From: Planctomycetota bacterium
GTDB taxonomy: Bacteria > Planctomycetota > PLA2 > JAEUHO01
Assembly (NCBI GenBank): GCA_030066775.1
Contig: JASJAY010000039.1
Span: 1 to 32,975, forward strand
Direction: 5' to 3'
DNA length: 32,975 nucleotides
Shown here: positions 27,192 through 32,940 of the stretch, piece by piece
Numbering within the stretch: position 1 is the stretch's first letter
Layout: each line of letters starts with the position of its first letter
Program-made: the position numbers and the translations under genes
Notes under the pieces: generated by a model
What the model was told of the DNA's origin: nothing
Seen by the model: the letters and a program-made list of their open reading frames with translations, nothing else
The model's database searches: none

Positions 27192-28157
27192 CTAGCCTCC
27201 GGAGCCGGGCGCGCTGCCGGGACCGCTTCCGGGGGTCTCCGGCACGCCTTCCGTGGGCGCCTCCGTGGCCGCCTCGCCGCCGGAGGGGAACGCCTGCGCC
27301 ATGAGGTCGTTGAGCTCCTGGGAGTAGACGATCATCGCGATGAAGACGCCGAGGCCGAGCACGATGGGCCAGGCCTTGTACCAGCGGAAGCGCTCGCCGC
27401 CCTCGCCGACGAACTTGCCGCCCCAGATGCCCATGAAGTAGAGCCCGACGACGGGGATGGCCATCATGATCTGGGTCACGGGGCTCGGGTCGGTGAGGAA
27501 CATGCCGAGCACGACCGAGAGCACGACGGCCCAGCGCCAGCCCTTCTTGAACGTCTCGCGGCGCACGATGTCGACCGCCTGCAGGAAGAGCATGATCAGC
27601 GGCAGCAGGAAGACGAAGCCCATGGCGATCGTCATCCGGATCATGGTCGAGAGGTACTCGTCCGCCTTGTAGGTCGGATCCACGCCGAGGTTCGCGTCGA
27701 AGCCGATCAGGAAGCGCAGGCCGAACGGGATCAGGATCTTGTAGGACGCCACGAGCCCGAGCCCGAAGAGCAGGAGCGAGATCGGGAAGAAGATGCGCAC
27801 GTACTTGCGCTCGTGGGGATAGAGCCCGGCGGCGATGAAGCCCCAGAGCTGCCAGATCACGAGCGGCCCGCAGACGACGAGGCCGACCAGGAAGCAGAGC
27901 TTGAGCGCCTGGAAGAAGCCCTCGCCCGGGCCGGTCCCCATCAGGTTCTTCGGCGGGTCGATGCCGGCAGCGACCTGCGCGACGTGATACGGCCCCTGCG
28001 CGAAGTCCCAGATCTCGACGTGCCAGAAGAAGGCCACGACCATCGAGACGACGATCCCGATGACCGAGATGAACAGGCGCCGGCGGAGCTCATCGAGATG
28101 CTCGCTGAGCGTCATCCGCGGCAGGTCGGCCTCGGGATGGGGCAATTCGCCGGTCAT
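27192..28157 (-). CDS. tatC: Twin-arginine translocase subunit TatC
   Basis: 321 residues from ATG 28157; starts at 28199 and 28115 are alternatives and none has a good ribosome binding site. The conserved opening MTLSEHLDELRRRLFIS is followed by six hydrophobic helices. The usual loop FFQALKLCFLVGLV...PLVIWQLWGFIAAGLYPHERKY is clear, and the second half has SPVTQIMMAIPVVGLYFMGIW. TatC recognises the twin-arginine signal of folded exported proteins. No tatA or tatB is in the window. A Pro/Gly/Ser tail ends the protein. It begins the tatC-ychF-cinA operon. The 243-nt upstream gap holds the terminator of the preceding gene (28347-28374) and a second hairpin (28226-28250). TATCCT lies only 7 nt before the ATG. 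Confidence 0.95.
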   Translation of the reverse strand: MTGELPHPEADLPRMTLSEHLDELRRRLFISVIGIVVSMVVAFFWHVEIWDFAQGPYHVAQVAAGIDPPKNLMGTGPGEGFFQALKLCFLVGLVVCGPLVIWQLWGFIAAGLYPHERKYVRIFFPISLLLFGLGLVASYKILIPFGLRFLIGFDANLGVDPTYKADEYLSTMIRMTIAMGFVFLLPLIMLFLQAVDIVRRETFKKGWRWAVVLSVVLGMFLTDPSPVTQIMMAIPVVGLYFMGIWGGKFVGEGGERFRWYKAWPIVLGLGVFIAMIVYSQELNDLMAQAFPSGGEAATEAPTEGVPETPGSGPGSAPGSGG

Positions 28158-28346
28158 TGGTCGAAGGATAGCGCTGGTCACGCCATTGGCTGCCGCCAAC
28201 CTTGGGTGTGATCAGGGGTTCGTAGGGAGCGCCCCTTGCGGGCGCCCTCCTGTCGTGGGTGCCCTTACGCCGATCTTGGCCATTCGCGGTTCCGCACGAC
28301 TGCCGCCGGCCGCGGATGCGATGGCCCGCTGACCTGGAATTGAGAA

Positions 28347-28400: not shown

Positions 28401-30080
28401 CTAGTAGTTCAGGAACGCGTCGAAGAGGCTCTCGCTGATGACCTCGGCACCGACCTTGCGGGCGTTGTTCTGCATGGCCTCGATGGGCGACTTCGCACCC
28501 ATGTCTTCCTCGTCCGCATCCTCGTCCTCGTCGCCGCCCTCGGCCTTGGCCTGCTCGGCCACGACCCACGCGTTCGGGATCACGATGTAGTCCGTGTCGC
28601 CGTTGATCGCGCTCTGGAGGTTGACGTTGATCGAGGCGAGACGCTGCTTCGCCATCGTCGCGGGCCACTTGGTGATCGGGCCGGCGAAGAAGACGTTGAT
28701 CGTCTCGTTGGGGCTGTAGAAGGGGTTGTGAATGAAGTCGCCCTGGGTGAGCGGGGCGGTCATCGAGACGATGCGGCAGCGAGCGGAGCTGTTGCCCGTC
28801 ACCTTCGTGACCATGACCATGCCCTTGGCGACGCGGTCACCGACGCGATCCAGCGCGCTCACGTTGAAGCGCTGGCCGACGTAGACCTTGTCGTTGAAGC
28901 CCAGGTTGATGATGGCGGTGCGCAGCGTGTTGTTGGCCGCCACGATGTCACCATCGGGATCGTCACGACGCACGATCAGGTCGCGCGTCTGCTTCAGGAT
29001 GCGCAGCGCTTCCTTGCGGGCATCGAGCTCGGAGCTGAGGCGCGCCACGTCCTTGCGACGGCTCTCCTTCTCGGCCGCGAGGGCGTTCTGCGCGGTCTGC
29101 TTCTCGAGGTTCGCGTCCGAGACCTGCTGCTGCAGGTCGCCGATCTGCGAGTCCTTGGCCGTCAGATCCGTGGCGTACTGATCTTCCTGGTCCTTCAGGT
29201 TCTTGTTCAGCTCGGAGATGTTCGTCTCCTTCTGAGCAAGGATGCCGGTCAGGCGCTGGATCTCTGCGACGTCCGCCTGCTTGTTGGCGGCGAACTCTTC
29301 GCGCATGGACTGGGGCACGCCGCGGACGGCGTTGAGGAACTCCTCGACCGTCTGCTCGGGCAGCGCCTTCATGAAGGTGACCTTGATCAGGTCTTCGGCG
29401 TTGGGATCGGTCACCGCGTAGTTGGTGATCGTCTCGGCCCACTCCTTGAAGCCGTCCATGCTGGCGGCCTCGTCGAAGAGCTTGTGCCAGGCGGCGATCG
29501 CCTGATCGTGGTTGTTCTTGGCCGCCTCGTACTCCGCGGCGGCGGCCGAGTCATCCGGATCGTGATCCGGGATGGGCGCGGCCGGGACCTCGAACTGCGA
29601 GATCTCCGCGAGCTTCGACTTGAGCGCGTCGCTCATCGTCGCGTACTTGAAGTCCTTGGCCTCGGCCTTCGGGCTCCCCGTGCGGCGCTCACGCTGGTAC
29701 GTGAGGTACGCCTGCTCGATGAGCTCCTTGAGCGTGCCGTTCGCCTGCGTGTCGCCCACCGCGACCATGCCCTGGTCGTTGAGGTGCGGCGCAAGACGCG
29801 CGACGTCGACGCTGGTTGCCTGGTCGACACCGAGCGCGTCGTTGCCGGCGACGATCTTCTTGAAGCCCACGATGTTGGACACGGTCTTCAGCTCTTCGCC
29901 GCGCGCGTTGGCGATCGCGCGAAGATCTTCGATCTGGCCCTTCTGGTCCTCGATCGTCTTGAGGTTGTCGTCCTTCTGGTCCTGGGCGTTCCACCACATG
30001 TAGATGAACGCCAGGAGCGCAATGAGGACGATGACGAAGGGCCAGTTCACACTGCCCCGCTGTCGGTTGAGAGAACGCAT
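28401..30080 (-). CDS. Membrane-anchored coiled-coil protein with C-terminal BRCT-like domain
   Basis: 559 residues; GGAGG lies 5 nt before ATG 30080. A basic N-terminus (MRSLNRQR) and one helix (~13-30, FVIVLIALLAFIYMWW) make a membrane anchor; positive-inside bias suggests the bulk is periplasmic, not proven. Heptad-rich coiled coils occupy ~35-65 and ~262-370. Residues ~377-450 form a beta-rich segment (GDIVAANNTLRTAIINLG, then VYVGQRFNV). Residues ~461-558 look like a BRCT domain: INVFFAGPI, the helix MAKQRLASI, TDYIVIPN, an acidic insert (~512-527), then ARKVGAEVISESLFDAFL, which closely resembles the end of LigA-type BRCT domains. I know of no named gene for this architecture. It is a single-gene unit with its own promoter, 5' hairpin and terminator. 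Confidence 0.8.
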   Translation of the reverse strand: MRSLNRQRGSVNWPFVIVLIALLAFIYMWWNAQDQKDDNLKTIEDQKGQIEDLRAIANARGEELKTVSNIVGFKKIVAGNDALGVDQATSVDVARLAPHLNDQGMVAVGDTQANGTLKELIEQAYLTYQRERRTGSPKAEAKDFKYATMSDALKSKLAEISQFEVPAAPIPDHDPDDSAAAAEYEAAKNNHDQAIAAWHKLFDEAASMDGFKEWAETITNYAVTDPNAEDLIKVTFMKALPEQTVEEFLNAVRGVPQSMREEFAANKQADVAEIQRLTGILAQKETNISELNKNLKDQEDQYATDLTAKDSQIGDLQQQVSDANLEKQTAQNALAAEKESRRKDVARLSSELDARKEALRILKQTRDLIVRRDDPDGDIVAANNTLRTAIINLGFNDKVYVGQRFNVSALDRVGDRVAKGMVMVTKVTGNSSARCRIVSMTAPLTQGDFIHNPFYSPNETINVFFAGPITKWPATMAKQRLASINVNLQSAINGDTDYIVIPNAWVVAEQAKAEGGDEDEDADEEDMGAKSPIEAMQNNARKVGAEVISESLFDAFLNY

Positions 30081-30127: not shown

Positions 30128-30154
30128 GAACCGTCCGGTACCTCCGGACGGTTC
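30128..30154 (-). promoter_or_regulatory. Leader hairpin of the coiled-coil gene
   Basis: GAACCGTCCGG (30128-30138) and CCGGACGGTTC (30144-30154) form a perfect 11-bp stem with a 5-nt loop. It is predicted to begin about 10 nt into the mRNA, 48 nt before the start codon. Roles as an RNA stabiliser, attenuator or protein operator cannot be separated by eye. Confidence 0.6.
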
Positions 30155-30477: not shown

Positions 30478-31101
30478 CTGGATTCCAAGCGACTCGTTAT
30501 CGGGTTGTTAGGCGGCATCGGTGCCGGCAAGTCGTACGTCGCCCGCCGTCTGGCGGCGCTGACGGGCGGCACCCTCGTCGATGCGGACGCCCTGGCGCAC
30601 CAGGCCCTGGACGCCTGTGCGGCCGACGGACGCCTGACGGAGGCGCTGGGACCGGGGTATGTGACGGCCGAGGGGGGCGCGAATCGGGAGGCCCTGGCCC
30701 AGGAGGTCTTCTCCGACCCGGCACTTCTGGGCCGCCTCGAAGATCTGGTGCACCCGTTGGTCTTTGCGCTGATGGACGACCTGATCCAGAATCACGGCCG
30801 AGGAGACGGGCCGGCGGTCCTCGTGCTGGACGTGCCGCTGCTCATCGAGGTCGGCCTCGACCCCAGGTGCGATGTCCTGTGGTTCGTGGACGTACCGGAA
30901 GCGCTTCGCAAGGAGCGCACGGGCAGACGAGGCCTCTCCTGGGAAGAGACGAAGCTCCGGGAGCAGAGTCAGACCCCGCTCGAGGAGAAGCGCGAGCGGG
31001 CGGACTGGATCATCCGGAACGACGTCGAGGACGCACTGCTGGACCAGCAGATCCGCGAAGCCCTCGACGCAGTGGGAGTTCGAACACCGACGGGGAGTTG
31101 A
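30478..31101 (+). CDS. coaE: Dephospho-CoA kinase, probable CTG start
   Basis: 207 residues from CTG 30478. It phosphorylates dephospho-CoA in the last step of CoA synthesis. The P-loop strand and loop read LVIGLLGGIGAGKS, followed by LVDADALAHQAL (the DAD...H substrate motif), VLDVPLLIEVGLD, the lid region RTGRRGLSWEETKLREQSQ, and ERADWIIRNDV. The first conventional start, TTG 30505, would begin the protein at LGGIGAGKS and delete the first beta-strand of the P-loop fold. The CTG gives the normal N-terminus and has a strong ribosome binding site. An initiator Met is expected despite the CTG. The gene is followed by rho after 66 nt, probably on one transcript. Confidence 0.93.
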   Translation: MDSKRLVIGLLGGIGAGKSYVARRLAALTGGTLVDADALAHQALDACAADGRLTEALGPGYVTAEGGANREALAQEVFSDPALLGRLEDLVHPLVFALMDDLIQNHGRGDGPAVLVLDVPLLIEVGLDPRCDVLWFVDVPEALRKERTGRRGLSWEETKLREQSQTPLEEKRERADWIIRNDVEDALLDQQIREALDAVGVRTPTGS

Positions 31102-31167: not shown

Positions 31168-32940
31168 ATGGCAGCGAAGAAGAAAACAGCGAAGACGTCA
31201 GCCAAGAAGGCCGCGAAGAAGAAAGCGGCCAAGAAGAAAGCCGCCAAGAAGAAGGCGGTGAAGAAGAAGGCTGCCAAGAAGAAGGTCGCGAAGAAGAAGG
31301 CGACCAAGAAGAAGGCAGCCAAGAAGAAGGCGACGAAGAAGAAGGCCGCGAAGAAGAAGGCCGCGGCGCGCCGCAAGAAGGTCGAGCCCGAGGAAGCGGA
31401 CGAGGCCCCCGAGCTCGAAGCCGAGCCCGAGGTCGCGGCCGAGACGCCGGCGCTCGTCGAAGCGGCCGTCGGGGCCGAGGCCGAGGCGAGCGAGGACGTG
31501 CCCGCGCCGCGTCGGCGCGCGCGCGTGATTCCGCCGCTGCCCGACGAGGACGAGGAGTACGTCCCGTTCGAGGAAGCGGACGCGCCCGAGGCACCGCGCG
31601 ACGCACCGACGGACGCCTCGCCGCAAGAGCTGCTCGAGGGCGTCCGCGCGGGCGACCTGCACGTCTCCGCGCTCGAGGGCTTGAGCGAGCGCCAGGTGCG
31701 CACGCTCGCCCGCAAGAACGGCGTGCGCACGCGCCGCAACGACTCGCGGGAGTCGATCATCGAGCGACTGGTCAGCGCCAAGGAGCGCACCTCCAGCGCG
31801 GAGGAAGACTCGACGCCGGCGCTGCCGCGCGAGCGCGTCTACACCGAGGGGCTGCTCGAGATGCACCCCGACGGCTACGGCTTCCTGCGCAAGGCGGAAC
31901 GCAGCTACCAGCAGCACCCCACCGACATCTACGTCTCGGCGGGCCTGATCCGGAAGTACCAGCTCAAGCCCGGCCACTGGATCACCGGCTACGCCGAGCG
32001 GCCCAACCCCAAGCAGCCGCAGCTGGCGCTCAAGACGGTGGACCAGGTCAATCACGAGGATCCGGCGCGCCTCGAAGGCATCGTCGCCTTCGAGTCGCTC
32101 ACCGTCGTGTACCCGGACCAGCGCTTCATCCTGGAGACGGGCCAGCAGGATCTCGAGACGCGCGTCATCGACCTGTTCTGCCCGCTGGGCATGGGGCAGC
32201 GCGGGCTGATCGTGGCACCGCCGCGTACCGGCAAGACGGTCCTGTTGACCAAGCTGGCGGACGCGATCGCCATCAACAATCCGAGCGTGGACATCGTCGT
32301 GCTGCTCGTCGACGAGCGGCCGGAAGAGGTCACGAACATGCGCCGGTCGGTGAAGGGCGAGGTCGTCGCCTCGACCTTCGACAAGCCGGCCAGCAACCAC
32401 GTGCGCGTGGCCGAGCTCGTGGTCGAGAAGGTCAAGCGCATGGTCGAGTTCGGCCGCGACGTCGTGCTGTTGCTCGACTCGATCACGCGTATGGGCCGCG
32501 CCTACAACAACCAGACCGGCGGTAGCGGCCGCCTGCTCTCGGGTGGCCTCGATGCGAACGCGCTGACGAAGCCCAAGCGCTTCTTCGGCTCGGCCCGCAA
32601 CGTCGAGGACGGCGGCAGCCTGACCATCGTCGCGACGGCCCTGATCGACACGGGCAGCAAGATGGACGAGGTGATCTTCGAAGAGTTCAAGGGCACGGGC
32701 AACATGGAGATCGTGCTGGACCGCGACATGGCGAACAACCGTGTCTGGCCGGCCATCGACCTGCCTGCTTCGGGCACGCGCAACGAGGATCTCCTGCTGC
32801 ATCCCGACGAGCTGCGTCGCACCACGATGCTGCGCCGTGGCATCACGGGCCAGGATCCGATCACCGTCATGACCGCGCTGCGCAAGCAGCTCCTGAAGTT
32901 CGGCACCAACGGCGAGTTCCTGCTCTCCCTCGGCGGCTAA
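31168..32940 (+). CDS. rho: Transcription termination factor Rho with H1-like lysine-rich tail
   Basis: 590 residues; E. coli Rho has 419. Residues 3-71 are near-perfect AAKKK repeats resembling histone H1 tails; ~73-150 are acidic and Ala/Pro-rich. The conserved protein then follows: the Rho N-terminal helical domain (~151-208), the RNA-binding cold-shock-like domain with GYGFLR (236-241), and the RecA-type ATPase. The ATPase has P-loop GLIVAPPRTGKT (K356), VVLLVDERPEEV, Walker B VVLLLDSITRMGRAYNN, the Q-loop region TGGSGRLLSGGLD and the R-loop KGTGNMEIVLDR. The catalytic core looks fully functional. N-terminal extensions of Rho are known in Actinobacteria and other phyla and can alter RNA binding; an effect here is inferred. 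The ribosome binding site is weak. Confidence 0.97.
   Translation: MAAKKKTAKTSAKKAAKKKAAKKKAAKKKAVKKKAAKKKVAKKKATKKKAAKKKATKKKAAKKKAAARRKKVEPEEADEAPELEAEPEVAAETPALVEAAVGAEAEASEDVPAPRRRARVIPPLPDEDEEYVPFEEADAPEAPRDAPTDASPQELLEGVRAGDLHVSALEGLSERQVRTLARKNGVRTRRNDSRESIIERLVSAKERTSSAEEDSTPALPRERVYTEGLLEMHPDGYGFLRKAERSYQQHPTDIYVSAGLIRKYQLKPGHWITGYAERPNPKQPQLALKTVDQVNHEDPARLEGIVAFESLTVVYPDQRFILETGQQDLETRVIDLFCPLGMGQRGLIVAPPRTGKTVLLTKLADAIAINNPSVDIVVLLVDERPEEVTNMRRSVKGEVVASTFDKPASNHVRVAELVVEKVKRMVEFGRDVVLLLDSITRMGRAYNNQTGGSGRLLSGGLDANALTKPKRFFGSARNVEDGGSLTIVATALIDTGSKMDEVIFEEFKGTGNMEIVLDRDMANNRVWPAIDLPASGTRNEDLLLHPDELRRTTMLRRGITGQDPITVMTALRKQLLKFGTNGEFLLSLGG
31174..31380 (+). repeat. Coding tandem repeat (AAKKK units) in rho
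   Basis: About thirteen imperfect 15-nt units of the form GCC-GCC/ACG-AAG-AAG-AAG encode the Lys/Ala tail. The plus strand is strongly purine-biased here. Unit number could vary between strains through slippage. Confidence 0.75.

Follow-up and report, generated by a model that had tools for sequence, protein, structure and literature searches.

A membrane-anchored coiled-coil protein family of Planctomycetota, often encoded beside tatC and ending in a predicted BRCT domain with a lost phosphate pocket

The window, that is, the whole stretch of 32,975 nucleotides that was analysed, carries ychF, tatC and the gene at 28401-30080, in this order, on its minus strand, and coaE and rho on its plus strand. 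The features of this region are the following:

27192-28199, minus strand: tatC, the conserved neighbour downstream of the gene and the single TatC detected in this genome
28347-28374, minus strand: perfect 13-bp GC stem-loop 3' of the stop codon, resembling a terminator but with a weak T tail
28401-30080, minus strand: complete gene for a protein of 559 amino acids with the predicted order transmembrane helix, coiled coil, FlgT_C-like beta barrel, BRCT
28404-28706, minus strand: predicted BRCT domain, residues 459-559, with substitutions at the phosphate-pocket positions
28494-28538, minus strand: predicted disordered acidic insert within the BRCT domain, residues 515-529, typical of the window protein's own family
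28725-28955, minus strand: predicted beta domain, residues 376-452, structural match to the FlgT C-terminal domain
28971-29348, minus strand: predicted long coiled-coil helix, residues 245-370, AlphaFold2 pLDDT about 80-94 over most of its length
29376-29861, minus strand: predicted mixed alpha/beta insert, residues 74-235, mostly missing beyond the window protein's own family
29982-30056, minus strand: predicted transmembrane helix, residues about 9-33, with MRSLNRQR (net charge +3) on its N-terminal side and an acidic flank (net charge -2) on its C-terminal side
30128-30154, minus strand: perfect 11-bp inverted repeat GAACCGTCCGG/CCGGACGGTTC, 48 to 74 bp upstream of the ATG
30505-31101, plus strand: coaE, conserved divergent neighbour
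31168-32940, plus strand: rho, conserved divergent neighbour

The reading frame at 28401-30080 comprises 559 codons plus the stop codon without interruption, and its coordinates and strand were verified. A chance ORF is excluded, because a protein search found homologues in 48 of 59 relatives, the best match being at 1e-110 and the identity falling to 20-30%. An earlier note on this DNA had described one N-terminal helix, coiled coils and a beta-rich segment, which matches both the hydropathy profile and the AlphaFold2 model. A second hydrophobic stretch was not found in the window protein, the maximum mean hydropathy outside the transmembrane helix being 0.83. In the full-length model, which was built on an alignment of 45 homologues, long helices span residues 12-71, including the single transmembrane segment, and 245-370, and strands are predicted at residues 377-451, while a separate model of residues 366-559 reached a mean pLDDT of 89.6. 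Searches of Pfam and NCBIfam with the window protein alone returned just weak coiled-coil matches, regarded as noise, with no Pfam match for residues 71-236, and Foldseek with the full model gave nothing informative outside the two C-terminal domains. The beta domain starts at the near-invariant DG of the PDG motif of the family.

The flanks of the gene only partly bear out the picture of a single-gene unit with its own promoter, leader hairpin and terminator that the earlier note had drawn. The leader hairpin has a counterpart in the perfect inverted repeat at 30128-30154, which is a candidate for either a leader hairpin or an operator between the divergent genes. The proposed terminator gains a perfect 13-bp stem, but the tail after it is merely TTCTC and the stem was not among the results of the terminator scan. 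A promoter of its own was not confirmed, since the promoter scan detected no sigma-70-like site on the minus strand. Moreover, the gene is less isolated than was claimed: in much of the phylum it keeps its place between coaE-rho and tatC.

The search for orthologues in Planctomycetota that had been proposed in the earlier note showed the family to extend through most of the phylum. A profile of the last 194 residues matched 292 of 294 Planctomycetota genomes, a figure that overstates the presence of the family as LigA is also caught, and about 240 of the 294 remained when only best matches stronger than 1e-14 were counted. Taxonomic families with weak matches throughout, for example f44 and f71, probably lack a member. 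The named records in a profile search of contigs comprised only Planctomycetota, one titled 'bacterium' and Candidatus Uabimicrobium amorphum, hence a restriction to Planctomycetota is not proven. The N-terminal transmembrane helix, coiled coil, beta domain and BRCT domain recur across the family.

The assignment of the C-terminal domain to the BRCT fold is supported by family profiles and structural models. For the window protein itself it runs via intermediates and the model, because on its own this protein matches no BRCT profile; phmmer with its last 104 residues against the PDB found nothing, and the BRCT profile of its own family reached LigA only at a non-significant E value of 0.88. 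Pfam PF00533 was matched by 27 of 45 full-length family proteins and by 19 of 20 isolated C-terminal domains, a diverse subset from taxonomic families other than that of the window, one of them scoring 36.4 bits against a cut-off of 21.3. The full family profile retrieved the LigA BRCT domain 1l7b with an E value of 1.1e-14, a profile match to the RFC1 BRCT domain reached 3e-8, and hhalign joined the window protein's own family to the 20-domain BRCT set with a probability of 97.8 (E value 7e-13, 82 columns). The full-length model shows C-terminal strands at 461-465, 486-489, 498-501 and 546-549 and helices at 474-482, 532-543 and 550-557, i.e. the beta-alpha-beta-beta-alpha-beta-alpha order of BRCT domains, and the separate model of residues 366-559 shows the same order. 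Foldseek matched the C-terminal domain to the RFC1 BRCT domain 2ebu (E value 7e-4), to LigA (3e-3) and also to 9a6z, although with modest TM-scores. The BRCT-like ending suspected from the sequence is thus met again in a BRCT-like predicted fold and in strong BRCT matches of the family profiles, and its likeness to LigA in the best PDB match; neither of the two results that the earlier note had named as refuting the idea occurred.

The LigA BRCT domain (PF00533; PDB 1l7b and 2owo) provides the best sequence relatives in the PDB and shares with the family the order of strands and helices, the structural glycines, a TD motif, the helix-2 alanine and the glutamate before helix 3. The family differs from LigA in that it lacks ligase domains, is predicted to be membrane-anchored and has lost the T, GSK and K residues of the phosphate pocket, and the window protein's own family has an extra acidic insert. 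Adenylation, OB and HhH domains of NAD-dependent DNA ligase were not detected in the window protein by Pfam/NCBIfam, and the genome carries a separate LigA.

Phosphate-binding BRCT domains, as in LigA, RFC1 and BRCA1, have a threonine or serine after strand 1 together with basic residues in helices 1 and 2, and the RFC1 BRCT domain binds 5'-phosphorylated double-stranded DNA with the residues T415, R423, K458 and K461. In LigA from the same and related genomes these positions are almost invariant (T in 24/24, R in 24/24, K in 24/24 and K in 23/24). The family members, counted in an alignment built with the family profile on which these numbers depend, show T or S in only 3 of 75, a basic residue in 40 of 77, K or R in 3 of 75 and K or R in 21 of 75, and the window protein has A, A, M and N. 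More than two of the four residues occur in none of 81 family members, whereas all four are present in 23 of 24 LigA proteins. The residues of RFC1, the top BRCT match by fold (PDB 2ebu and 2k6g), are accordingly mostly replaced. The structural glycines after strand 1 and before strand 2 are found in 68 of 75 and 69 of 77 members, with G and N in the window protein, and the helix-2 alanine in 67 of 75. Judged from these aligned residues, the BRCT domain of the family keeps its structural positions and its phosphate pocket is lost, which argues against the binding of DNA ends or phosphopeptides.

The beta domain preceding the predicted BRCT domain has a predicted fold that resembles the C-terminal domain of FlgT (PF16538), a periplasmic protein of the flagellar basal body. 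Foldseek matched it to FlgT in the LPHT ring (8z5n, E value 1.8e-4) and to FlgT 3w1e (2.1e-4), though matches to F1-ATPase cover a similar length, and the Pfam profile FlgT_C gave a weak match in 2 of 45 members (E value 0.0011). Unlike FlgT, the family lacks the other FlgT domains, and no flagellar genes were seen among the neighbours checked.

The orientation in the membrane was predicted from the charges beside the transmembrane helix. Among 69 members with a plausible start, the start codons being chosen by rule, the N-terminal flank is more positive than the C-terminal flank in 55, less positive in 4 and equal in 10 (Wilcoxon p 4e-10, a value that overstates independence as the members share ancestry, so that the charge statistics are indicative only). 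By the positive-inside rule, which single-TM proteins may break, this asymmetry puts the C-terminal part into the periplasm. Hence, an N-in/C-out topology with the BRCT head outside the cytoplasm is predicted; the charge asymmetry and the FlgT-like adjacent domain agree with the earlier guess that the protein faces the periplasm, which is still a prediction.

Collectively, we regard it as rather likely that the protein is an inner-membrane-anchored periplasmic rod with the pocketless BRCT domain as a protein-docking head. As a type II membrane protein it would keep its N-terminus in the cytoplasm and expose everything past the transmembrane helix to the periplasm, as suggested by the positive-inside pattern. 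Two chains might pair via the coiled coil to form the rod, of which residues 245-370 alone would account for about 19 nm at 0.15 nm per residue, and the rod would carry the barrel and the BRCT head away from the membrane. The head would then dock another envelope component rather than read DNA ends or phosphopeptides, and the partner or client might act in protein export or envelope biogenesis, a speculation that starts from the linkage with tatC. SteB of Mycobacterium is a single-TM periplasmic coiled-coil dimer docking the hydrolase RipA (PMC12977500). SteB/MctB of Mycobacteriales (PF11382), with a single N-terminal transmembrane helix, a periplasmic coiled-coil dimer and a partner-docking globular part, serves here as a working analogy and not as a relative, its head domain being different. 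One weak match had prompted a search for MctB/SteB homology, in which PF11382 was over the cut-off in 0 of 40 genomes. For the family as a whole, descent of the head from an ancestral LigA-like BRCT domain that lost its pocket and now serves phylum-wide as the docking head of a periplasmic rod, possibly together with Tat, appears about equally probable. The main rivals to the rod are a DNA tether on the cytoplasmic side and a role as a Tat subunit.

The first of these would have the protein face the cytoplasm, where the BRCT domain tethers the inner membrane to DNA, to a repair protein or to the nucleoid. To our knowledge, BRCT domains function exclusively in DNA metabolism, in the cytoplasm or the nucleus, and the closest relatives of the domain with a solved structure, LigA and RFC1, fit such a role. 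However, most members have a basic N-terminal and an acidic C-terminal flank, the opposite of what an N-out/C-in protein should show, the DNA/phosphate pocket is lost family-wide, the adjacent domain resembles periplasmic FlgT, and none of the adjoining genes in the window acts in repair. This tether is therefore considered unlikely.

The second rival starts from the neighbourhood. At 28 sampled loci, which represent about 20 taxonomic families, the family gene lies directly upstream of tatC, and nearly all of them have a divergent coaE on the other side; the linkage is conserved and probably old. The protein might accordingly be an accessory subunit dedicated to the Tat translocase, for example an arm in the periplasm that docks TatC clients or controls their quality, and it is the genome's only tatC that lies here, the tatA-like genes found by a whole-genome PF02416 search being on other contigs (e.g., G000:C178:12562-12708). 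TatA and TatB resemble the family in having one transmembrane helix and a gene beside tatC, but the window protein is not a PF02416 member and TatA-like genes exist elsewhere in the genome; nor was a hidden tatA seen between the family gene and tatC when the small ORFs of the gaps were inspected by eye. Against such a subunit it counts that the positions of coaE and rho are equally conserved, so that the gene order may be frozen without function, and that several genomes have two adjacent family copies. Furthermore, the linkage is missing in several lineages (L101 and L110-L116) while the family gene is still there, hence Tat is not a required partner. The gaps to tatC are mostly 60-450 bp, and the stem-loop intervenes in the window; co-transcription with tatC is thus at most a possibility. 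A dedicated Tat subunit is as improbable to us as the cytoplasmic tether.

Two further explanations are far weaker. An RG motif stands just before the transmembrane helix or opens it in 28 of 69 members, for example at 30050-30062 of the window, and could be read as the prepilin peptidase site of a prepilin- or pseudopilin-like protein, but this is very improbable, as many members do not have the motif, long coiled coils together with a BRCT head are foreign to pilins, and eight N-termini gave no match to the Pfam profiles N_methyl, PilX, TadE and GspK even at an E value of 1. Mere convergence on a BRCT-like alpha/beta fold in the window protein's own family, to which the absence of a significant BRCT match for this protein and its own-family profile and the modest TM-scores might point, is hardly credible in view of homology along the full length to members that match Pfam BRCT strongly, the hhalign alignment joining both sets and the identical order of secondary structures.

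BRCT domains are treated as markers of DNA repair or replication, and automatic annotation would file the family there. Should the head lie in the periplasm and lack the pocket, as predicted for the proposed rod, the BRCT fold would have taken on a structural docking role outside the cytoplasm, and the literature searched offered no precedent for this. The earlier note had called a membrane-anchored BRCT protein new or at least undescribed; searches combining BRCT with Planctomycetes, Gemmata or periplasm yielded no relevant title or abstract and no description of the family, and within the limits of this literature neither the architecture nor the predicted compartment has been described before, nor have the loss of the pocket and the synteny across the phylum. 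Since the cell envelope of planctomycetes is unusual and poorly understood, a family that is apparently old, syntenic and present nearly throughout the phylum lends itself to genetic work in cultured species.

Some variants of the common theme were also recorded. The adjacent copies lie on the same strand and are diverged (L116, L122, L034, L035, L040, L044 and L048), which suggests a heterodimer. In a paralogue (L045/L105, the latter being G040:C2, the second copy there) the signal-peptide-like sequence MRFACPLLLILVIGIADAQS replaces the transmembrane anchor, which also speaks for the predicted periplasmic location, and L105 does not adjoin tatC. The member at L047:1868-3220 apparently has two copies of the beta domain ahead of the BRCT domain. 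Finally, the neighbouring rho has a lysine/alanine-rich, histone-H1-like N-terminal extension (31168-31380 of the window, MAAKKKTAKTSAKKAAKKK...) that matches Pfam HC2 with an E value of 2e-4.
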